A stretch of 64,000 bases of DNA from Massilia polaris (GTDB taxonomy: Bacteria; Pseudomonadota; Gammaproteobacteria; Burkholderiales; Burkholderiaceae_D): the NCBI RefSeq assembly GCF_012927275.1, contig NZ_JABBGG010000014.1, forward strand, positions 1 to 64,000, read 5' to 3'. A program made the position numbers and the translations under genes. Positions 5,317 through 26,297 of this stretch are shown in pieces. The number at the start of each line of letters is the position of its first letter. Positions within the stretch are counted from its first letter, which is position 1. The notes below the pieces were generated by a model. It did not search any database, was not told where the DNA came from, and saw only the letters and a program-made list of their open reading frames with translations.

Positions 5317-5389
5317 GTTCGTGCTTATCCTGCGTGTGGTGTGTTTCCGCCTGCCGCTTTTGACGACAGGGTCCGCCCCATGGTTTTTC

Positions 5390-6433
5390 TTATGCTGCCA
5401 GCGCTTCGCTGGCGTTTTCGCCTGCGGAGGAAACGTCCGCGGGGCGGTATTGTAACCTCTCCCCGTGACTGTGTTGCGATTCGAAAAATTTATCTACTGC
5501 CAATAACTGTTCGGCGGTGAACTCGAGCCGGTTCATTTGCTGGCGGAAAGTTTCGCCGCCGGGCAGATCTTGAACATACCAGCCGATGTGCTTGCGCGCG
5601 GTGCGCACGCCGACGAATTCGCCGTAGAAGGCGTAATGGGCCTGCAGGTGCTGGTTCATCAGGTGGCGCACTTCGTCGACGTACGGCGCCGGCAAATGGG
5701 TGCCGGTGCGCAGGTAATGATCGATTTCGCGGCAGATCCACGGGCGCCCTTGCGCCGCGCGGCCGATCATGACCGCGTCCGCGCCGGTGTAATCGAGTAC
5801 GTAGCGCGCTTTTTCCGGCGTTGTGATGTCGCCGTTGGCAACGACCGGAATGCCCACCGACGCCTTGACGGCGGCAATGGTGTCGTACTCGGCATCGCCT
5901 TTGTAGCCGTCGGCGCGGGTGCGGCCGTGCAAGGTCAGCATCTGGATGCCGGCCTGCTCGGCAATGCGCGCGATGCGCAATGCATTCTTGTTTTCGCGGC
6001 TCCAGCCGGTACGGAATTTCAGGGTGACGGGCACGTCGACGGCTTGCACCACCGCATGCAGGATGCGCTCGACCAAATCCTCGTGCTGCAGCAGCGCGGA
6101 GCCGCACCAGCTGTTGCACACCTTCTTGACCGGGCAACCCATGTTGATGTCGATGATCTGGGCGCCGCGGTCGACATTGAATTTTGCGCAATCCGCCAGG
6201 TCTTGCGGGTCGGCGCCGGCGATCTGCACCGCCTTCGGCTCCATTTCGCCGGCGTGGTCGGTGCGGCGCGAACTCTTCTCCGTTGCCCACAGGCGCGGAT
6301 TCGACGCCGCCATTTCGGACACCGCATAGCCCGCGCCCAGCTCCTTGCACAGCTGGCGGAACGGGCGATCCGTCACGCCTGCCATCGGGGCGACGAAAAC
6401 ATTATTGCGCAGTAAATACGGTCCGATTTGCAC
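5390..6433 (-). CDS. dusB: tRNA-dihydrouridine synthase DusB
   Basis: DusB is an FMN- and NADPH-dependent enzyme that reduces specific uridines of tRNA to dihydrouridine. The 347 residues form a TIM barrel with VAPMAGVTDRPFR (14-26) as the FMN-binding start, the catalytic cysteine motif NMGCPVKKV (98-106, Cys100), and HGRTRADGYKGDAEYD followed by VVANGDI in the phosphate-binding part. A C-terminal alpha-helical domain is present. The last ~30 residues are variable. It leads the dusB-fis-purH cluster. Confidence 0.96.
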   Translation of the reverse strand: MQIGPYLLRNNVFVAPMAGVTDRPFRQLCKELGAGYAVSEMAASNPRLWATEKSSRRTDHAGEMEPKAVQIAGADPQDLADCAKFNVDRGAQIIDINMGCPVKKVCNSWCGSALLQHEDLVERILHAVVQAVDVPVTLKFRTGWSRENKNALRIARIAEQAGIQMLTLHGRTRADGYKGDAEYDTIAAVKASVGIPVVANGDITTPEKARYVLDYTGADAVMIGRAAQGRPWICREIDHYLRTGTHLPAPYVDEVRHLMNQHLQAHYAFYGEFVGVRTARKHIGWYVQDLPGGETFRQQMNRLEFTAEQLLAVDKFFESQHSHGERLQYRPADVSSAGENASEALAA

Positions 6434-6561
6434 AGGTCAGCATGGAAAGAATGGCGGGAACCTTTTATTTTAACCGATATACTGCTCAATTAATTAGCAG
6501 TTTTTTCGCATGAGGCTGACGGAAAACTCTAAATGGCGCTTGATCGGTGTTGATTTATCGG
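6434..6561. promoter_or_regulatory. Intergenic region ahead of dusB with an AT-rich hairpin
   Basis: This 128-bp AT-rich gap precedes the minus-strand dusB-fis-purH cluster. It holds an ACTGCT/AGCAGT inverted repeat (6481-6486 with 6496-6501) followed on the plus strand by TTTTT. On the minus strand the sequence AATTGAGCAGTATATCGG is followed by TAAAAT, a plausible -10 element, about 40 bp from the dusB start. No -35 element at ideal spacing is evident. It probably carries the promoter for dusB and fis, by position. Confidence 0.4.
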
Positions 6562-7209
6562 CTACGGGAGTTCATCCAGCGCGCCCTGGCGCAGGTGGCC
6601 GACCTCGCCCCAGCTGTCCAGCACCAGGTTTCCTTCTTTAATCGTGAAGCGGTTGATGCTTGCGTTCATGACCTTGAAGGTGCGCGGGGTTTCGAGCGAC
6701 AGCCCGAGCGCAGCGCGGTAGGCGCACTCGAGCACGCCTCCGTGGGCGACCACGGCAAGTGTGCCACCCGGATGGGCACCGGCCCATGCCAGGATGGCGT
6801 CGACGGCGCGCCGGTAGAACTGGCGGAAGGTTTCGGCGCGGCGCTCGCCTTCGGGCATCGTCGAGTCGACGTCCCTTGATTGCCATGCGGCGAATTCGGC
6901 TGGGTAGCGTTGTTCGATTTCTGCGTAGAGCAAGCCTTCGAAACCGCCGTAGCAGCGTTCGCGCAGGGAGGGATCGGTCTCGACTGGAAGATCGTGCAGG
7001 CGGGCGACGGCCGTGGCGGTCTGGTACGCGCGTTGCAGGTCGCTCGAGACGATCGCGTCGAAGCGCTCGCCTGCCAGTGCCGAGGCCAGCGCGTCGGCCT
7101 GGCGCTCGCCTTCGGCGTTCAGGGCGATGTCGATGTGGCCTTGCAGGCGGCGCTCGGCGTTCCAGGCGGTTTCGCCGTGTCGGATCAGGATGATGCGGGT
7201 TGTTGGCAT
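6562..7209 (-). CDS. Histidine phosphatase family protein (phosphoglycerate mutase-like)
   Basis: A 215-residue member of the histidine phosphatase superfamily. The phospho-accepting signature is LIRHGETAWN (8-17; Arg10, His11, Glu13), the acidic residue region is SLRERCYGGFEG (81-92), and the second histidine is His156 in VVAHGG. The cofactor-independent small-phosphatase subgroup includes GpmB-, CobC- and YhfR-like enzymes; the substrate cannot be told from sequence. It lies on the same strand as dtd, with a 33-bp gap, so it may be the distal gene of a tyrS-dtd transcript. Confidence 0.93.
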   Translation of the reverse strand: MPTTRIILIRHGETAWNAERRLQGHIDIALNAEGERQADALASALAGERFDAIVSSDLQRAYQTATAVARLHDLPVETDPSLRERCYGGFEGLLYAEIEQRYPAEFAAWQSRDVDSTMPEGERRAETFRQFYRRAVDAILAWAGAHPGGTLAVVAHGGVLECAYRAALGLSLETPRTFKVMNASINRFTIKEGNLVLDSWGEVGHLRQGALDELP

Positions 7210-7242
7210 GTAATACCGGGGTAGGCCGTCAGGGTTGTAACA

Positions 7243-7689
7243 CTATTTCGGCTCAACCTGGAGCCAGAACGTCACCGGCCCATCATTGGTCAGCGAAACC
7301 TGCATGTCGGCGCCAAACTGGCCCGTTTCGACCGTCGGATGACGCTTGCGTGCAGCCGCGACAAAATGATCGAACAGCCGCCGTCCATCCTCCGGGCTGG
7401 CGGCCGGCGTGAACGACGGCCGCGTACCGGACTTGGTATCCGCCGCCAGGGTGAACTGGGGAACCAGCAACAGCCCCCCTTCCACATCGGTCACGCTGCG
7501 GTTCATCTTGCCTGCGTCGTCAGAAAACACGCGATAGCCAAGCAACTTGGCCAGCAGCGCATCGGCTTCACGCCCGGTATCGCCTCGTTCGGCGCAAACC
7601 AGCACCATCAGGCCGGGCCCGATGGCGCCGATCGCCTGCCCGTCGACCGTCACGCTGGCCTGGCTGACCCGCTGAAGCAGGCCGATCAT
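7243..7689 (-). CDS. dtd: D-aminoacyl-tRNA deacylase Dtd
   Basis: Dtd hydrolyses D-aminoacyl-tRNAs (D-Tyr-tRNA is the classic substrate) and so protects translation from D-amino acids. The 148-residue protein begins [17 protein letters not shown], the family start, and carries the two active-site motifs PQFTLAAD and NDGPVTFWL (near the C-terminus), the latter being the cross-subunit Gly-Pro motif. The frame is open upstream to 7842, but this start is set by homology and by the ATGA overlap with the tyrS stop codon. Direct coupling to tyrS fits its substrate. Confidence 0.96.
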
Positions 7690-8954
7690 GCGCTCAGCGT
7701 CACTCGGGCGAACTTGCGCTTGCCAACTTGCAGCACGACGGTGCCGGCGTCCAGCTTCAGCGCCTTGTCGCTGACCACCGTGCCGTCGATGCGCACGCCG
7801 CCCTGGTCCACCATGCGCATCGCTTCCGAGGTGGAAGCGCACAGGCCAGCCTGCTTGAGCAGGTGGGCAATGCCAAGTGGCGCGCCGGAAACCGACACTT
7901 CCTGCACATCATCCGGAATACCACCCTTCGAGCGGTTCACGAAGTCCGCCAGCGCATCGTCCGCCGCCTGGGCCGAATGGAAGCGCGTGACGATCTCTTG
8001 CGCCAGTGCCACTTTGGCGTCGCGCGGGTTGCGCCCACCTTCCACTTCGGACTTGAGCTGGGCGATGTCGGCAATCGAGCGGAACGACAGCAGATCGAAA
8101 TAGCGCCACATCATGACGTCGCTAATGCTCATGAGTTTGCCGAACATCGTATTGGCAGGCTCGGTGATGCCAATATAGTTGTTCTTGGACTTGGACATCT
8201 TCTCGACGCCGTCCAGGCCTTCGAGCAGCGGCATTGTCAGGATGCACTGTGGTTCCTGCCCGTAGTCTTTCTGCAGTTCCCGGCCAACAAGCAAGTTAAA
8301 TTTCTGGTCTGTTCCACCTAGCTCAAGATCTGCCTTCAAAGCGACGGAATCGTATCCCTGCATTAAGGGATAGAGGAACTCATGGATCGAAATTGGAGTC
8401 CCACCCTTGAAGCGCTTGGTGAAGTCGTCGCGCTCCATCATCCGGGCAACCGTGTAGCGGGAAGAAAGTTCGACCATGCCCCGCGCCCCCAGCGGGTCGC
8501 ACCATTCGGAGTTGTAGCGGATTTCAGTGCGCGAAGCATCCAGCACCAGTGAAGCCTGGCGGAAATAGGTTTTGGCGTTTTCCTCGATCTGCTCGCGGGT
8601 CAGCGGCGGCCGCGTTACATTGCGGCCCGAAGGGTCGCCGATCATCGACGTAAAGTCGCCGATCAAAAAGATCACCTGGTGCCCGAGGTCTTGCAGCTGG
8701 CGCAGCTTGTTCAGCACCACGGTGTGGCCCAGGTGCAAGTCGGGCGCGGTCGGGTCGAGCCCGAGCTTGATACGCAGCGGCTGGCCGGTTTTTTCGGAAC
8801 GCGCGAGTTTTTGCGCAAATTCGCTTTCGATCAGCAGTTCGTCGACGCCACGCTTGGTAATGGCGAGCGCTTCCAGGACAGCGTCTGTCAGCGGCAAGGG
8901 GGCCGAACCATGCACGGCGGCAGCGGTTCTAGGTGTTACGGAAGGGTTCGTCAT
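7686..8954 (-). CDS. tyrS: Tyrosyl-tRNA synthetase
   Basis: TyrS charges tRNA-Tyr. The 422-residue class I synthetase shows the HIGH-type motif as HLGH (74-77 in [15 protein letters not shown]), the KMSKS loop ([10 protein letters not shown]), and a C-terminal S4 RNA-binding domain (about 355-420, with DQGGVRIDG). The length and HLGH form fit the TyrZ-like subgroup common in proteobacteria. It overlaps dtd by 4 bp downstream and is divergent from the M23 peptidase gene. Confidence 0.97.
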
Positions 8955-16476: not shown

Positions 16477-17208
16477 ATGATTGAAGCAAGCGACGTCCGT
16501 AAACACTTCGGCGAGGTGAAGGCGCTCGGCGGGGTGTCCTTCACCGCGCGCGACGGCCAGATCACCGCGCTGCTGGGCCCCAACGGGGCCGGCAAGACCA
16601 CCCTGCTGCGCCTGCTGGTCGGCCTGCTCGCGCGCGATCACGGCAGCATCGCCATCGGCGGCGTCGACCCGGCCGTCGACCCGATGTCGGTGCGCCGGAA
16701 TATCGGCTTCCTGACCGACCAGTTCGGGCTGTACGAGCGCCTCACCACGCGCGAATACCTGACCTACTTCGGTGAACTGAACGGCATGGGCGGCGCCGCG
16801 CTGCGCCAGCGCATCGACGAAGTGGCGGACCTGCTGTCGCTGGACGACATCCTGATGCGCCACACCAAAGGTTTCTCGCAGGGCCAGCGCATCAAAGTCG
16901 CGATGGCGCGCACCTTGCTGCACCGGCCGCGCCACCTGCTGCTCGACGAGCCGAGCCGCGGCCTCGACGTGATGAGCACGCGCGCGCTGCGCCATGCGCT
17001 CACCGTACTGCGCAAGGAAGGCTGCTGCGTGCTGATGGCCACCCACGTGATGCAGGAAGTGACCCACCTGTGCGATGACGTGATCGTGATCGCGCAGGGC
17101 CACACCGTGGCGCAGGGATCGCCCGAAGAACTGTGCCGGCGCACCGGCATCGCCAACCTCGAAGATGCATTTGTCAGCCTGGTGGGCGAAGAAGGGATTG
17201 CAGCATGA
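16477..17208 (+). CDS. ABC transporter ATP-binding protein (NatA/CcmA type)
   Basis: A 243-residue ABC ATPase: Walker A GPNGAGKT (34-41), a degenerate signature FSQGQR in place of LSGGQ, Walker B LLLDEPSRGLDV, and the switch His in MATHVMQE. It begins MIEASDVRKHFGEVKALG, the start of the nucleotide-binding domain; GAGG precedes the ATG, and the long upstream open frame is a shadow of the peptidase gene. Its stop overlaps the permease start (ATGA). The pair forms a sodium-exporter-like (NatAB) or ABC-2 exporter; the substrate is not known. Confidence 0.93.
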   Translation: MIEASDVRKHFGEVKALGGVSFTARDGQITALLGPNGAGKTTLLRLLVGLLARDHGSIAIGGVDPAVDPMSVRRNIGFLTDQFGLYERLTTREYLTYFGELNGMGGAALRQRIDEVADLLSLDDILMRHTKGFSQGQRIKVAMARTLLHRPRHLLLDEPSRGLDVMSTRALRHALTVLRKEGCCVLMATHVMQEVTHLCDDVIVIAQGHTVAQGSPEELCRRTGIANLEDAFVSLVGEEGIAA

Positions 17209-18386
17209 AGCCAAAGTTCATGGTCGTATTCATGAAGGAGTTCCGCGAGACCTTGCGCGACCGCCGTTCGCTGGTGCTGCTTGCGCTGTTCACGCTGATG
17301 TATCCGCTGATGCTCGGCTACATGCTGAACAAGCAGATCGAGCGCGCCACCAAGCCCGAACGCGAAGGCATGGAGCTGGCCGTCATCGGCGCGGCGCAGG
17401 CGCCCAACCTGATGGCGCAGTTCAAGCAGAAGAACGTGACCGTGCAGCAGGTCGACGCGATGGACGAAGAGGCCATCGGCGAACTGCTCAAGTCGCGCAA
17501 GGTGGTGGCGGTACTGCGCATCGACGACAAGTTCGCCGAGAACTACCAGGAGATGCGCCCGGCGCAGGTCGAGCTGTGGTTCGATTCGGCGATCGACAAC
17601 GGGCCGCGCGTGCGCGACGTCGAGGCGGTACTGAACGCCTACAGCATGGACATCGCCAGTGCGCGCCTGCTGGCGCACGGCGTCTCGCCGGTGACGATGG
17701 CGCCGGTGAAGGTGCAGCGCTACGACACCGGCGGCACCGCCGGCCGTTCGGGCGTGATCGGCGCGATGATCGGGTTCCTGTTCTTCCCGGCGTTCGGCTG
17801 CTGCCTGTCGGCCGCGGTCGACAGCACCGCGGGCGAACGCGAACGGCGCTCGATGGAAGTGCTGATGGCGCAGCCGGTGCGCACGTGGGAACTCATTGGC
17901 GGCAAATGGCTCGCCGCCGGCATCCTGTCGGTGATCGCCATTACGCTGGAACTGGCGCTGGCGCACGGCATCCTCAGCTGGCTGCCGCTGGAAGAAGTCG
18001 GCACGTCGTGGCGCGTCACGTCCGCCGACCTGGCGCTGATCTGCCTGGCCTCGCTGCCGCTGTCGCTGCTGGCCGCCGCGGTGCACATCGCGATGGCGAT
18101 GAACGCCAAGTCGTTCAAGGAAGCCCAGACCACGGCCAGCGTCGTAATGCTGGTGCCGATGATCCCGGGCGTGGTGGTATCGATGATGGAGCTGAAAACG
18201 GCCGCGTGGATGTATGCGGTGCCGATGCTGTCGAACCAGACCTTGCTCGGCGAAGTGGCCAAGGGCCAGGACATCGGCGCGATGCCGTACCTGCTGACCT
18301 TCTTCAGTTCGCTGATACCGGCGCTGGCCGGCGTCGCCTTCGCCAGCTGGCGCCTGCGCAGCGAACGTTACGTACTGGCGGTATAG
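17205..18386 (+). CDS. ABC transporter permease (NatB/ABC-2 family)
   Basis: A 393-residue membrane subunit. One transmembrane helix lies near the N-terminus (about 22-41), followed by a ~135-residue soluble extracytoplasmic domain. A cluster of about five helices begins near 185 (IGAMIGFLFFPAFGCCL) and runs to the C-terminus, with the ABC-2 motif STAGERERRSMEVLMAQPV (about 208-226). This layout is that of NatB/YhaP-like permeases. Its start overlaps the ATPase stop by 4 bp, so the two are translationally coupled. The substrate is unknown. Confidence 0.9.
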   Translation: MKPKFMVVFMKEFRETLRDRRSLVLLALFTLMYPLMLGYMLNKQIERATKPEREGMELAVIGAAQAPNLMAQFKQKNVTVQQVDAMDEEAIGELLKSRKVVAVLRIDDKFAENYQEMRPAQVELWFDSAIDNGPRVRDVEAVLNAYSMDIASARLLAHGVSPVTMAPVKVQRYDTGGTAGRSGVIGAMIGFLFFPAFGCCLSAAVDSTAGERERRSMEVLMAQPVRTWELIGGKWLAAGILSVIAITLELALAHGILSWLPLEEVGTSWRVTSADLALICLASLPLSLLAAAVHIAMAMNAKSFKEAQTTASVVMLVPMIPGVVVSMMELKTAAWMYAVPMLSNQTLLGEVAKGQDIGAMPYLLTFFSSLIPALAGVAFASWRLRSERYVLAV

Positions 18387-20713: not shown

Positions 20714-20862
20714 CCCCCCTCGCCAAGTCACACCGTTGCCGTGTACGCGGCCCCGGTGTGCCGCCGCGTCAATACGCCCCGCCCCATTCCCCCAAAACTG
20801 CACTCTGTTCCAATCAAATCGCCGTGTATCGCAACGAGCCGCCATGCCGGCCATAAATTTAA

Positions 20863-20920
20863 TACAATGCAACTATCACAAAAGCGTAACCGTTGCATTT
20901 TTGGTTACGCATGGTTACGG
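20863..20920 (+). promoter_or_regulatory. Promoter with operator-like repeats ahead of the ABC/M1 cluster
   Basis: A -10-like TACAAT (20863-20868) is followed at about +10 by an inverted repeat GCGTAACC (20884-20891) and GGTTACGC (20903-20910), 11 bases apart. A third half-site GGTTACGG (20913-20920) lies in direct orientation. The ABC ATPase start is 15 bases further on. An operator overlapping the transcription start would fit repression, though the repeat could also form an RNA hairpin. The role is inferred from position and symmetry. Confidence 0.55.
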
Positions 20921-20934
20921 GATCTGGAGTCAGC

Positions 20935-21825
20935 ATGGAATTACGCATCCGCAATTTGTCGAAGACCTACGCCAATGGCGTGGTGGCGCTGGACAATGTC
21001 ACCCTGAACATCCCCACCGGGATGTTCGGCCTGCTCGGCCCCAATGGCGCGGGCAAGTCGACGCTGATGCGCATCCTCGCGACATTGCAGGAATGCGACT
21101 CCGGCTCGGTGTTCCTCGACGAGATCGACGTGCTCGACGAACAGGACGAAGTGCGCCGCATGCTGGGCTACCTGCCGCAGGACTTCGGCGTCTACCCGAA
21201 AGTGACCGCTTACGAACTGCTCGACCACTTCGCCGTGCTCAAGGGACTGTCGAGCCGTGCACGCCGCCGCGAGGTAGTCGACGGCCTGCTCCAGCAAACC
21301 AACCTGTTCGAAGTGCGTCACCAGCGCCTCGGCGGATTCTCGGGCGGCATGCGCCAGCGCTTCGGCATCGCCCAGGCGCTGCTGGGAGATCCGCAGCTGA
21401 TCATCGTCGACGAGCCGACCGCCGGCCTCGACCCGCAGGAGCGGGTGCGTTTCCACAACCTGTTGTCCGATATCGGCGAAGACAAGACCGTGCTGCTGTC
21501 GACCCACATCGTGTCCGACGTGGCCGACCTGTGCTCCAACATGGCCATCATTAACAAGGGCCACGTGCTGCTGTGCGGCGAGCCGCAAAAGCTGATCGAC
21601 GCCATCGACGGCAAGATCTGGGAGCGCTTCGTCACGAAGGCAGAAGTCGCAGCCTTCCAGACCCGCCACGCGGTGATTTCGACCCGCCTGCTGACCGGCC
21701 GAACCCTGATCCGGGTGTACGACGAGCGCGATCCGGGCGACGGCTTCGATCCGGCCATCGGCGATCTCGAAGACGTGTACTTCGCCACCATCGCCGGGCG
21801 CAGTTTCGCGGCCAGCAACTGCTAA
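20935..21825 (+). CDS. ABC transporter ATP-binding protein paired with the permease/M1 fusion
   Basis: A 296-residue ABC ATPase: Walker A GPNGAGKS (35-42), Q-loop in LPQDFGVYP, signature FSGGMRQRFGIAQAL, Walker B LIIVDEPTAGLDP, and switch His in LSTHIVSDV. A C-terminal extension of about 80 residues follows the core, as in CcmA-type ATPases. It starts at MELRIRN with TGGAG upstream; the longer open frame is not used. It ends 9 bp before the permease/aminopeptidase fusion, so the two encode the motor and membrane parts of one transporter. Confidence 0.94.
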   Translation: MELRIRNLSKTYANGVVALDNVTLNIPTGMFGLLGPNGAGKSTLMRILATLQECDSGSVFLDEIDVLDEQDEVRRMLGYLPQDFGVYPKVTAYELLDHFAVLKGLSSRARRREVVDGLLQQTNLFEVRHQRLGGFSGGMRQRFGIAQALLGDPQLIIVDEPTAGLDPQERVRFHNLLSDIGEDKTVLLSTHIVSDVADLCSNMAIINKGHVLLCGEPQKLIDAIDGKIWERFVTKAEVAAFQTRHAVISTRLLTGRTLIRVYDERDPGDGFDPAIGDLEDVYFATIAGRSFAASNC

Positions 21826-21834
21826 GGACAGTTT

Positions 21835-24800
21835 ATGCTGGCAATCGCACTGTTCGAAGCGCGGCAGCGGCTCAAGCTGCTGTCGACCTGGGTCTACTTC
21901 GGCATGTTCTTCGCACTGGCGATGCTGTGGATGGCCGCCGCCGGCGGCGTCTTCAAGGAAGCCGTCGTCACCTTCGGCGGCAAGGTCCTGATCAACGCGC
22001 CCCGTTCGATCGACCTGACGGTAGCCTTCCTCGGCTGCCTCGGCGTCGTGGTGGTGGCCGCGATCGCGGGCCGCTCGGTGCAGCAGGACTTCGAGTACGA
22101 CATGCACCACTTCTTCTTCAGCGCGCCGATCAGAAAGGCCGACTACGTGTTCGGGCGATTCTTCGGCGCCTGCTTCACGATGGCGATCGTCTTTTCCAGC
22201 ATCGTGCTGGGCGCGTGGCTCGGCACCTGGATCCCCGGCATCGAGCCGGACCGGCTCGGGCCTTCCAGCGTCATGATGTACCTGCGGCCATTCGTTTTCA
22301 CGCTGCTGCCCAACCTGTTCATCTTCGGTTCGATCTTCTTCGTGCTGGCCGCGCTGACGCGCCGCATGATGCCGGTCTACGTGGCCAGCGTGGTCATGAT
22401 GATCGGTTATATCGTGGCGCCGCAGCTGGCGCGCGACCTCGATTACAAGACGCTGGCCGCACTGATCGACCCGTTCGGCACCACCGCGCTGATCCGCGTC
22501 ACCGAGTACTGGCCCATCGCCGAGCGCAATGTGCGCACGATCCCGTTCGAAGGCGTCTACCTGCTCAACCGCCTGATCTGGTCGGGCTTCGGGCTGGTCG
22601 TGCTGCTGCTTGGATACTGGCGCTTCCACTTTATCAGCTCCGCCGACAGCGGCGCTGCGCGCCGGCGCGACAGCGAACTGCCGCTGCAGCTGTCGCACAC
22701 CGCCGCCGACACGCGCGAGAAGCCCGATTTCGCCAACCGCAGCCTGGCGCTGCTGCTGGCACGGTCGGCCTGGCTGAACTTCCGCGAATCGGTCAAGAAC
22801 ATCTACTTCGCCGTCATCGCGCTGGCCGCGGTGCTGGCGGTGTTCGCCAGCTCGCTCAACATCGGCGCGATCTATGGCACCAATACCTACCCGGTCACCT
22901 ACCAGGTGCTCGAGATAATCAGCGATACCTTCGCGCTGTTCATGCTGGTCGTGACCACCTTCTACGCCGGCGAACTGGTATGGCGCGAACGCGAAGCGCG
23001 CATGGCGCCGATGCTCGACGTGATGCCGGTGCCCACATGGGTGCGCATGCTGGCCAAGGTGTTCGCGCTGGTCGGCCTGCAGGCGCTGATGCTGTTTGTA
23101 TTGATGTTGTGCGGCCTGCTGGTCCAGGTCTTCAACGGCTACTTCGTGTTCGAGCTGGGGCTGTACGTCAAGACCCTTTTCCTGATCCAGCTGCCGCTGT
23201 ACGCGCTGATCGCGGTGCTGGCGATCGCCCTCCAGGTGCTCCTCAACCATAAGTACGTGGCGTACTTTGCGATGATCCTGTACTACGTCGCGACGATCGC
23301 CTTCGCCACGCTCGGCCTTGACCACCCGATGATCCTGTACGGCACCACGCCCGACGCCGTGTATTCGGCGATGAACGGCTTCGGCCACTACCTGGCGCGT
23401 GAACGCTGGTTCGAGCTGTATTGGGCCGGCGCGGCACTCATGCTGCTGGTACTGACGCTGGTGCTCTGGCCGCGCGGCTGCAACGATGAACTGGGAAGCC
23501 GGCTGCGCCTCGCGCGCCGCAACCTCAGCACGCCGGTGCTGGTGAGCTTCGCGCTTGGACTGGCGATCTTCGGCGGCGCCGGTTCGCTCCTGTACTACAA
23601 CCTCCACATCGCCAACGACTTCCACACAACCTGGCAGGACGAGCAGCAGCGCGCCGACTACGAACTGCGCTACAAGCGGCTCGCGGCGCTGCCGCAGCCG
23701 CGTGTGACAAGCGTCGACCTCAAGGTCGATATCAATCCGGAGCAGCGCAGCCTGGCGGTGCGCGGCACCTACCAGCTCGAGAACCGTTCCGGCCGTCCTG
23801 TCACCGACATCATGGTCAACCAGGACCGCCGCGCGGCGCTGAAGCTGCGCTTCAGCCAGCCGGTACGCCAGGTGATCGCCGACCGCGAACGCGGCGTCTG
23901 GGTCTACAAGCTCGTAAGCCCGCTGGCCGCAGGGGCGCGCATCGCCATGGCTTTCGACGTTGGCTACGCCCCGAAGGGCATCCTCGGCATGGGTCTCGAC
24001 ACGCCCGTGGTCGGCAACGGCACCTTCTTCAACAAGGACGTGCTGCCGTCGATCGGCTACCTGCGCTCAGCCGAACTTGAGGATGCGCGCGACCGCAAGC
24101 GCCACGACCTGCCGCCGCGCGAACGGATGCTGGCGCGCGACGACCCGAAGGGCCGCGCCAATAACTACATCAGCTCCGACGGCGACTGGATCGATTTCAA
24201 TGCCGTCGTCAGCACCAGCCCGGACCAGATCGCGATCGCCCCGGGGACGCTGGAGAAGGAATGGCTGGACAAGGGCCGCCGCTACTTCCACTACAAGATG
24301 GACAAGCCGATCCTGAACTTTTATTCGTTCCAGTCGGCGCGCTACGAAGTGCGGCACGACCGCTGGCGCGATGTCACGATCGACATCTACTACCATCCGG
24401 CGCACGACTTCAACCTCGACCGCATCGTGCGCGGCGTCAAGGCCTCGCTCGAATACTACTCGGCCAACTTCAGCCCGTACCAGCACAAGGTGGTGCGGGT
24501 GGTTGAATTCCCGCGCTACGAGACATTCGCGCAGTCGTATCCCGGCACGATCCCGTATTCGGAGAATATCGGCTTCATCGCCAAGGTGGACGACAAGGAC
24601 CCGAAGGACATCGACTACCCGTTCCACGTCACCGCGCACGAAATGGCCCACCAGTGGTGGGGCCACCAGCTGGTCGGCGCCGATACGCGCGGCGCGACGG
24701 TGCTGTCGGAAACGCTGTCCGAATATTCGGCGCTGATGGTGATGAAAAAGACGATGGGTCCGCACAAGATGCGCCGCTTCCTGCGCTACGACCTTGACCG

Positions 24801-25404
24801 CTACCTGATGGGACGCGCGCTCGAGAACCGCAAGGAACTGCCGCTGGCGCAGAACGAAAACCAGGACTACATCCACTACCGCAAGGGCGGGCTGGCGATG
24901 TACCTGCTGCAGGATGTGCTGGGCGAGGAAAAGATCAACGATGTGCTGCACGACCTGCTGGCGCAGCACGCGTTCCACGGCGCGCCCTACCCCGGCGTCG
25001 ATGTGCTGGTTTCTGCGCTGCGCGGCGTCACGCCGCCGGAATACGCATACCTGATCGACGACCTGTTCGAATCGATCGTCCTGTACGAAAACCGCGCCAC
25101 CACGGCGACCGCGCAGCGGCGTGCCGACGGCAAGTACACGGTCACCCTGGCCGCGACCGCCATCAAGATGCGCGCCGGTGAACTTGGCGAGGAAAAAGAG
25201 GCGGCGCTGAAAGACGTGATCGAATTCGGCGTCGACGACAAGGACGGCAGGCCGCTGGTGCGTGAGCGCCGCATCGTCGGCAGCCGCGATGTGGCGGTGA
25301 CGCTGGTGGTTGACGGCCGTCCGGCCAAAGCCGGCATCGACCCTGACAACAAGCTGATCGACCGCAAGCCATCGGATAATATGATCGACGTTGAAATGCG
25401 CTGA
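21835..25404 (+). CDS. ABC-2 type permease fused to an M1 family aminopeptidase
   Basis: A 1189-residue fusion. Two ABC-2 permease halves (about 1-265 and 314-560) each have around six hydrophobic helices. A further helix near 565-588 leads to a large extracytoplasmic M1 peptidase domain. Zinc ligands are visible: HEMAHQWW (His935, Glu936, His939) and Glu959 in [13 protein letters not shown]. There are 19 rather than 18 residues between the second His and this Glu, and the exopeptidase motif GxMEN is replaced by IPYSEN (906-911). AAGGA precedes the ATG. With two permease halves in one chain and an ATPase just upstream, it could form a complete exporter carrying its own periplasmic peptidase. 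Such fusions are known by annotation; substrates are not established. Confidence 0.93.
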
Positions 25405-25430
25405 CGCGCACGGCCTTACTGGAACTGACA

Positions 25431-26105
25431 ATGAAACGACTGACACTGATTCTCGCGGGCGCGCTGCTGACAGGCGGCGCGGCGGCAGCCCAGCCCGGGC
25501 CGACGTTTGGCTCGCATGGCATGGCCCTCTTTGGCGGCAAGGACGCGCTATACGCGTCGCACCTGCCGATGTTCCATGCGCCGCATGATTACCAGGTTGT
25601 GCTGCAGGTGCATGTCGCCGACCCGAAACTGGACGCTGCGCTGCGCCAGCGCCTCGACGGCAAGACCGCGCTGTGGACCATCGACCCTGAAAAATTTGAA
25701 CTGGACCGGCTCGCGCCGAACGCCGCGGCGCCGGTGCGCGAATTCAAGGCCGACCTGGTGGACGGCCACTTCGAACGAGGCGGCAAGACCCAGTACGCAG
25801 GCGCCACGGTGGTGGTCGACAAGGTGCTGGTGTTCCGCAAGCTCTCCGCCGACGCGGCCAAGCGCGACAGTGCGCGTTATGTGCAGCTTGGCAGCGGCAA
25901 GCAGCGCTACCTGGTGAAGGAAATCGACAGCCGACCGGACTTCGACCACATCGTGGCGATCACGTCACCCGCCGGCGCATCCGGCGCGCCTGTTGTGCTC
26001 GCAAAGCAGGGGCTCGACGAAACCGCGGCGGATACCCTCACACGTGCACTGCCCGGTGCGAAGGTCACGGGTACCGTCTATTTTGATACCGCAGACCTGA
26101 AGTAG
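25431..26105 (+). CDS. Secreted protein of unknown function following the ABC/M1 fusion
   Basis: A 224-residue protein with a clear Sec signal peptide (MKRLTLILAGALLTGGAAAAQ, cleavage about 20-21). The mature part is mostly beta-rich, with FGSHGMALFGGKDALYASHLPMFHAPHDYQ near its start (about 26-55; several His residues that could bind metal) and no cysteine. No domain is recognised. It lies 26 bp after the permease/M1 gene on the same strand and is probably co-transcribed, so a periplasmic partner or substrate of that system is a reasonable guess only. Confidence 0.82.
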   Translation: MKRLTLILAGALLTGGAAAAQPGPTFGSHGMALFGGKDALYASHLPMFHAPHDYQVVLQVHVADPKLDAALRQRLDGKTALWTIDPEKFELDRLAPNAAAPVREFKADLVDGHFERGGKTQYAGATVVVDKVLVFRKLSADAAKRDSARYVQLGSGKQRYLVKEIDSRPDFDHIVAITSPAGASGAPVVLAKQGLDETAADTLTRALPGAKVTGTVYFDTADLK

Positions 26106-26186: not shown

Positions 26187-26297
26187 ATGATTACGGCTAA
26201 ACAACGCGTTGCTGCATTGCTGGAACACCTTCAGGATTCCTGTTCGCTTCACGAAATCAGTTTCTACCTGCAGACGCTGAAACGCGCGTCAAAATAA
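26187..26297 (+). CDS. Small protein of 36 residues
   Basis: ATG 26187 with GGAG six bases upstream opens a 36-codon frame ending TAA 26295-26297, immediately before a terminator. The product (starting MITAKQRVAALLEHLQDSC) is helical, with one Cys and two His in DSCSLHEISFYL. A good ribosome site, a compact frame and a terminator directly after the stop argue for a real gene. The pattern loosely resembles short antitoxin-like helical proteins, but no toxin gene is adjacent. The function is unknown. Confidence 0.6.
   Translation: MITAKQRVAALLEHLQDSCSLHEISFYLQTLKRASK

Follow-up and report, generated by a model that had tools for sequence, protein, structure and literature searches.

An ABC-2 permease fused to an M1-fold peptidase domain in Massilia polaris, with a probable loss of the aminopeptidase anchor

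The question raised by the locus described here is what a bacterial ATP-binding cassette (ABC) transporter would do with a peptidase built into its own permease, and whether the gene that follows it belongs to the same system. The locus occupies positions 20,863 to 26,105 of a 64,000-nucleotide stretch of DNA from the soil bacterium Massilia polaris (assembly GCF_012927275.1, contig NZ_JABBGG010000014.1, positions 1 to 64,000 of the forward strand; "the window" denotes this stretch at its full length). It consists of three tandem genes, all on the + strand by their positions in the window, for an ABC ATPase, for a single chain that joins two ABC-2 permease halves to a C-terminal M1-type domain (the fusion), and for a secreted protein. 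The answer proposed, which is held tentatively and somewhat short of an even chance, is that the ATPase and the fusion would form a two-gene ABC-2 machine that uses ATP to handle a peptide or protein and couples this to a cleavage at the outer face of the membrane which is not of the aminopeptidase type.

The fusion protein and its zinc site

The three tandem genes of the initial annotation were recovered, co-directional and with short gaps of 9 bp (ATPase stop to fusion) and 26 bp (fusion stop to secreted gene). The ATPase gene (20935..21825, +), for which the start at ATG 20935 is preferred, has 297 codons including the stop, and its product of 296 aa matches PF00005 (ABC_tran) with 102 bits and contains a Walker A motif at residue 35 (GPNGAGKST), an ABC signature at 135 (FSGGMRQR) and a Walker B motif at 155 (LIIVDEPT). 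Its best NCBIfam match, to the GldA gliding-motility ATPase (TIGR03522), reaches 201.9 bits, below the cut-off of 402.6, and the protein was not assigned to that family.

The fusion gene (21835–25404, +) encodes 1189 aa. Its permease part (aa 1–588; 21835..23598, +) comprises two ABC-2 halves, the second of which matches ABC2_membrane_4 (PF12730) with 33.6 bits against a cut-off of 27, the first giving a sub-threshold match to PF13346 (15.9 bits, cut-off 25). The M1-fold part (aa 589–1189; 23599..25401, +) is matched by Peptidase_M1 (PF01433) over residues 869–1049 with 48.3 bits (cut-off 27.7), shows a weak NCBIfam similarity to PepN only (29.9 bits, cut-off 591), and finds ERAP2 and ERAP1 in the PDB by sequence and by fold; its predicted order of an N-terminal β-domain, a catalytic domain and a C-terminal β-domain is taken from a weak structure model. 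A crude hydropathy analysis gives 13 hydrophobic membrane segments in the fusion, about 12 in the two permease halves and a 13th (aa 566–588) that would lead to the outside. An extracytoplasmic position of the M1 domain fits, because of these 13 segments and of the charge of the loops, both read by this crude method; in this respect Pfam, hydropathy and loop charge agree with the initial annotation, which had described an ABC ATPase together with a single ABC-2/M1 chain whose peptidase faces outward.

The zinc and catalytic residues of the fusion are H935, E936 and H939 in the HEMAH motif (24637..24651, +), E959 as the third zinc ligand (24709..24711, +), and Y1015 as the likely catalytic tyrosine within a Y-x-K-G motif (24877..24879, +). 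The first four of these, as well as the spacing of 19 rather than 18 residues between H939 and E959, stand in the sequence exactly as first annotated. This spacing is a feature of the family, being present in 89 of the 91 fusions, among 97 examined, in which the pattern search worked. The 97 were reduced to 94 unique fusions before the site residues were counted, giving 95 with that of the window, and 25 further fusions were forced into the existing alignment columns, where single gaps may be off by 1–2 residues. The complete set of E910, H935, E936, H939, E959 and Y1015 is retained in 88 of the 95 and 21 of the 25, i.e., in 109 of 120 fusions, and the three residues of HEMAH in 114 of 120.

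The position of the GxMEN motif

In M1 aminopeptidases the glutamate of the GxMEN motif binds the free α-amine, a role that is established for that family. No GxMEN motif occurs anywhere in the fusion chain; the window's genome holds four further M1 genes, whose products carry GAMEN, GAMEN, GGMEN and GGMEY. According to the initial annotation, the sequence IPYSEN (906–911) replaces GxMEN in the fusion. That the motif is altered was borne out, but most alignments place the change upstream, at F898-A-Q-S-Y902 (24526..24540, +), where the anchoring glutamate would be replaced by S901. In HMMER alignments with human ERAP2, made with the single sequence and with the profile, the ERAP2 segment GAMENWGLITYRET aligns to fusion residues 898–911, such that GAMEN sits under FAQSY (898–902) and YRET under YSEN. 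Two MAFFT modes, run on a set of 12 fusions plus 7 standalone M1 proteins, likewise pair GAMEN with F898-A-Q-S-Y902, and a profile-profile alignment by hhalign, in which the 12 fusions were set against 5 of the standalone proteins (those of loci L003 and L004 left out), returns the same register with a probability of 99.4 and an E of 7e-22. In these alignments IPYSEN pairs with the downstream ITYRET/IVYNEA segment.

When the seven standalone proteins are aligned singly with the fusion profile, four place GxMEN exactly at 898–902, that of L205 is off by one residue, and that of L004 gives no answer. The seven standalone proteins have distances of 24 (L003), 32, 32, 33, 33, 33 and 36 residues from the GxMEN glutamate to HExxH; that from S901 to H935 in the fusion is 34. 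FAQSY is thus the favoured place of GxMEN by alignment, and IPYSEN is the less likely, minority register, disfavoured by the HMMER, MAFFT and profile-profile alignments, with L003 alone dissenting. Residue 901 is serine in 67 and alanine in 28 of the 95 fusions, with Q900 retained in 81, and in the 25 further fusions it is serine in 13, alanine in 10, and leucine and threonine in one each, none of them acidic. If the favoured register holds, the amine-binding glutamate is missing from all 120 fusions. The initial suggestion that an altered exopeptidase motif would change the recognition of the N-terminus holds in most alignments, through the loss of this glutamate at 898–902. The designation as an aminopeptidase is itself doubtful.

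In the proposed mechanism, one ATPase subunit, presumably dimeric, would power the single-chain permease of 12 transmembrane (TM) segments, and the 13th would carry the M1-fold zinc peptidase into the periplasm. At the inner membrane, the energy of ATP hydrolysis would then go into exporting or extracting a peptide or protein, which would be cleaved on the outer side by the fused domain, either internally or at blocked sites. Ordinary N-terminal cleavage is not expected because the residue that would hold the α-amine is a serine or alanine in the fusions. The secreted neighbour (25431–26105) would be a separate gene that came to lie beside the pair in this lineage.

It has to be noted that several observations weigh against this proposal. 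A structure prediction of the fusion, as suggested in the initial annotation, recovered the M1 relationship, with ERAP1 and ERAP2 as the best Foldseek matches of the weak model (E ~1e-12, low TM score), but the full-length model, for which the alignment comprised no more than 30 close sequences, is too poor for geometry (mean predicted local distance difference test, pLDDT, of 61.5, with residues 881–927 below 50), and the M1 relationship alone is considered usable from it. With respect to the register, the LTA4H-like protein of L003, aligned singly with the fusion profile, places its GGMEN at 905–909, near IPYSEN, and the distance of 25 residues from E910 to H935 is close to the 24 of L003; E910, which is nearly invariant (91 of the 95 fusions), could therefore be the residue that holds the amine. 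Six of the 120 fusions have lost their zinc ligands and retain permease and ATPase, so the cutting of peptides would seem not to be essential to every member of the family. Finally, the fusion and the gene of the secreted protein occur together in genomes beyond expectation (among 398 genomes of the window's phylum, 4 of 7 versus 23 of 391, Fisher p 0.0005; among 60 genomes, 10 of 10 versus 14 of 50, Fisher p 3e-5; kinship ignored in both), and in one clade they stay linked over several kb, which also counts against the view, set out below, that the secreted gene was relocated after the loss of its usual neighbours.

In a different model, which is considered unlikely, the ATPase and the permease would move no cargo and would serve to open and close the periplasmic peptidase. 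FtsEX- and MacB-type ABC systems drive periplasmic work by such mechanotransmission, M1 enzymes alternate between open and closed states, and the covalent joining of the peptidase to the permease is in line with a coupling of this kind. However, the two complete ABC-2 halves that are retained would exceed the needs of a transmitter, and the zinc-less members keep both ATPase and permease.

Another model, to which a similarly low likelihood is attached, regards the M1 domain mainly as a substrate-binding module whose peptidase activity is secondary or absent. It draws on the probable loss of the GxMEN glutamate and on the six zinc-less fusions (L212, L195, L208, L257, L273 and L219, the last on the Zymomonas plasmid pZM39), three of which lie in TonB-receptor operons, but the retention of the whole zinc/catalytic set in 109 of the 120, the window's fusion included, is something that binding alone would not require. 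The fusion of L212 (Massilia sp. Mn16-1_5; 5389–8901), with an open frame and a site reading E-Y-T-H-D-R, is the sole fusion matched in its genome, and that of L219 has arginines in place of the zinc histidines. Those on one strand with TonB receptors are L219 (1141–11925), with the order AraC, TonB receptor, two ABC half-transporters, ATPase and fusion; L257, with TonB receptor, DoxX, ATPase, fusion and a siderophore-interacting protein; and L208 (Pedobacter), where a TonB receptor precedes, by 111 bp, the gene immediately 5' of the start region of the fusion's ATPase, and MATE, a second TonB receptor and DUF4249 follow downstream. At L195 a TonB receptor is found two genes off, behind a gene on the opposite strand, and the locus scans showed none near L212 or L273; these scans included a crude home-made TonB scan, built from the zinc-less loci and covering proteins of more than 400 aa only. 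TonB receptors also occur near some zinc-competent fusions without abutting the pair; the nearest is at L192, on the ATPase's strand and two genes 5' of it, and that of L056 lies three genes downstream. As general partners they were rejected, since in the home-made scan they stand directly in the operon of zinc-less members only.

Five other fusions (L204, L205, L206, L218, L223) keep the zinc ligands and have lost E910. In the seven members of the 95-fusion set with an altered site, the catalytic part is less similar to that of the window than is predicted by a straight-line fit on the permease (by −2.4 to −4.4 s.d.), a fit that is dominated by close relatives and weak for distant members. 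Taken together with the proposed mechanism, a broader history can be sketched, which as a whole is speculative and rather unlikely: an ABC-coupled M1-fold family would have dropped the aminopeptidase anchor on the ABC-2 fusion to become ATP-fed cutters of internal or N-blocked bonds, and later zinc-less branches would have turned into substrate-binding modules, some of them in TonB/siderophore uptake operons.

The secreted neighbour

The third gene (25431..26105, +) encodes a protein of 224 aa to which no function is assigned and whose N-terminus, judged by eye, resembles a signal peptide, as initially annotated. Neither Pfam nor NCBIfam matched it, and 46 relatives gave scattered weak Pfam matches, in one or two members each. 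Its structure model has a mean pLDDT of 92.2, and the significant PDB matches of this model, to two chains of 6ebn (a Psilocybe decarboxylase; E 4.5e-05 and 1.9e-04, TM score 0.53–0.56), are taken to imply no function. The residues that do not vary in the 46 sequences include H29, H44, H52, H113, E115 and D222.

The initial annotation held that the transporter exports its cargo and trims the N-termini outside, with the secreted neighbour as a conserved partner, either substrate or chaperone. The gene order was compared in 80 loci of the secreted gene from named genomes, kept from 97 relatives, the nearest being those of Massilia. The secreted gene abuts the fusion in 2 of the 80 and in the window. 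In 38 loci the secreted gene is preceded, on its own strand, by a full fusion, at less than 100 bp in 2, at 0.1–1 kb in 4 and farther away (up to 6259 bp) in 32, and at L129, L131 and L136 the upstream fusion is cut by the end of the locus. In 41 of the first and best 44 loci, mostly from Massilia, Duganella, Pseudoduganella, Janthinobacterium and Rugamonas, the 10 kb upstream thus contain a fusion, whole or cut, in the same orientation. In the other 36 (L140–L175; Undibacterium, Roseateles/Pelomonas, Flavobacterium, Pedobacter and others), some of which are short stretches, 35 have no fusion in the stretch and L160 has it in fragments.

At the level of genomes, the secreted gene was found in 10 of the set of 60, all of which have the fusion; the search did not recover it from 14 of the 24 fusion genomes, among them that of L051, whose fusion is 88% identical to that of the window. 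Among the 398 genomes of the phylum, where few candidates per genome were scored, it occurs in at least 7 and together with the fusion in at least 4 (G000, G066, G074, G390); in the last three of these the two genes are on different contigs or ~0.98 Mb apart, and they are adjacent in the window's genome only. The 16 genomes reached by way of chosen secreted-gene loci comprise 11 with a full-length or split fusion, one with an M1 match only and 4 with no match.

The direct neighbours of the secreted gene are more often other genes. An oxidoreductase with PF16884 and PF00107, which we take to be of the CurA type, ends at most 85 bp upstream of it in at least 29 of the 80 loci, with a divergent LysR gene beyond, and a divergent LysR gene alone adjoins it in at least 12 more, each count coming from one query. 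The order of LysR, CurA-type oxidoreductase and secreted His-rich protein, as at L048 (5414–8101), is a recurrent module in loci of Burkholderiales type. Neither gene has a close copy in the window's genome, the best matches reaching 37% and 39% identity. Our reading of this arrangement is that the LysR and CurA genes were lost in this lineage and that the secreted gene then came to lie beside the fusion.

The trimming exporter with its partner is thus very unlikely: the 26-bp gap, the sharing of genomes (10 of 10, and 11 of 16), the upstream fusion in 41 of 44 loci and the amine-binding glutamate that IPYSEN would keep if the L003 register is right speak for it, but they are set against direct adjacency in only 2 of the 38 loci with a full fusion (more than 1 kb apart in 32), the 14 of 24 fusion genomes without the secreted gene, the 35 of 36 loci without a fusion, and the more frequent CurA and LysR neighbours. 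The secreted protein was accordingly rejected as a conserved partner. Of the survey of co-occurrence, the sharing of genomes beyond expectation stands and the side-by-side position does not; the absence of the secreted gene from the side of the fusion in relatives, named at the outset as an outcome that would speak against a partnership, is what these loci display. A fixed operon of the two appears ruled out by gene order, and a functional tie may exist.

Distribution, gene order and known systems

Matches to the fusion were found in 27 of the 60 genomes (the window's included), 24 with the fusion, in G006 fragmented, and 3 with M1 only; and in 57 of the 398 genomes of the window's phylum, with 27 full-length alignments, two of them with an in-frame stop, G402 and G426 being later recognised as carrying further full fusions. 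In Bacteroidota, 123 of 198 genomes match, many at full length and others through standalone M1 proteins. Since few candidates per genome were scored in the phylum and Bacteroidota scans, these counts are lower bounds. Among plasmids 27 records match, of which 10 cover ≥80% of the query.

Judged by gene order, the unit is made up of two genes, ATPase and fusion. A script that called the genes, and for which several starts are uncertain, found an ATPase homologue directly 5' of 88 of the 94 unique fusions; of the six misses, L122, L129 and L136 are cut loci, L128 and L059 are artefacts of the open reading frame (ORF) start with the ATPase present, and L202 is the second of two tandem fusions. 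No constant third gene accompanies the pair across the families examined, the neighbours being variable, with some loci having no row in the neighbour clustering as their gene was not called. This would fit a general rather than a dedicated substrate. Regulatory genes recur beside the pair in several loci from Bacteroidota, Pseudoalteromonas and Proteobacteria. A histidine kinase and a LytTR response regulator stand there at L204, L205, L218, L217 and L209 and on the Hymenobacter plasmid pHsw1, a kinase adjoins L263, a kinase and response regulators are found in Pseudoalteromonas, and a small Cro/C1-type regulator at L259; by analogy, such neighbours resemble those of systems induced by an envelope signal.

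Several further arrangements were observed. In the Bacteroidota loci L258–L261, L264, L266 and L270 a protein of 169–174 aa is encoded just 5' of the ATPase, accompanied in 6 of the 7 by one of 67–68 aa; the sole scanned locus of this set, L259, has DUF2975 and its Cro/C1-type regulator. In Solirubrum puertoriconensis (L202, 5179–12410) a single ATPase gene is followed by two complete fusions in tandem, and in Undibacterium sp. Jales W-56 (L203, 4405–7973) the permease and the M1 domain are encoded by separate, overlapping ORFs, by a true split or a sequencing frameshift. Proteins of 65–70 aa are encoded immediately 3' of the fusion at L054 and L055, and in the window a small ORF of ~36 codons is seen by eye past the secreted gene, at 26187–26297.

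Upstream of the ATPase gene, a MAFFT alignment of the window with 8 relatives reveals a conserved block (20790..20892, +), composed of a TCGCAA element and TAAATTTAATACAATGCAACTAT, which is likely a promoter/operator candidate for that gene. The inverted repeats TGCAAC/GTTGCA and CGTAACC/GGTTACG can be seen by eye in the window's block. An ABC-2 exporter pair similar to NatA/NatB lies ~2.5 kb upstream of the ATPase–fusion pair (16477–18386), and a similar one immediately 5' of the pair in several relatives (e.g., L048, L050, L053, L057, L058, L063, L064). It was rejected as a steady associate, the clustering placing it in several loci of the window's family only and in none of other families.

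Fusions of this kind are already in print. The family TCDB 3.A.1.145, with Q1D520 of Myxococcus xanthus (PMC3924187), has 13 TM segments, an ABC-2 permease followed by a C-terminal M1 domain and a length of ~1200 aa, and the window's fusion, compared with the published description of Q1D520 rather than by alignment, belongs to this kind. The account (PMC3924187) does not establish the function of that family, suggests that an amino acid, some derivative or a product of amino acid metabolism is exported, and leaves GxMEN unmentioned. Among the matches listed, from part of the open-access literature, this is the only paper describing such fusions, the missing GxMEN is not mentioned, and the Zymomonas fusion is not discussed in the parts of PMC5930841 and PMC8600466 that these matches cover.

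Homologous chains on plasmids of Hymenobacter, Granulicella, Sphingomonas, Pseudoalteromonas and Zymomonas are named "M1 family aminopeptidase" or "ABC transporter permease". The former name lacks the backing of the exopeptidase motif in most alignments, and the Zymomonas member is without zinc ligands; against the name stand 0 of 120 fusions with the defining acid in the favoured alignment, and 109 with a complete site. This contrast makes a prediction that can be tested in a transporter family which is widespread but uncharacterised, and the neighbourhood analysis corrects an apparent operon partner that might misdirect experiments. Of interest to specialists would be the zinc-less branch and the loss, probably throughout the family, of the anchor.

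With M1 aminopeptidases of the ERAP1/ERAP2, PepN and LTA4H type the fusion shares the M1 fold, HExxH, the third glutamate and the tyrosine of Y-x-K-G; it differs in the spacing to the third ligand (19 residues, not 18), in a GxMEN glutamate that is probably Ser or Ala, and in being joined to a permease. A related division of labour is known from antigen processing, in which an ABC machine, TAP, acts ahead of an M1 peptidase, ERAP1 or ERAP2, that works across the membrane. This is an analogy only: TAP and ERAP are separate proteins, the transporter is of another ABC class, and ERAP, as seen in the ERAP2 sequence aligned here, has the GAMEN motif, the glutamate of which the fusions would have exchanged.

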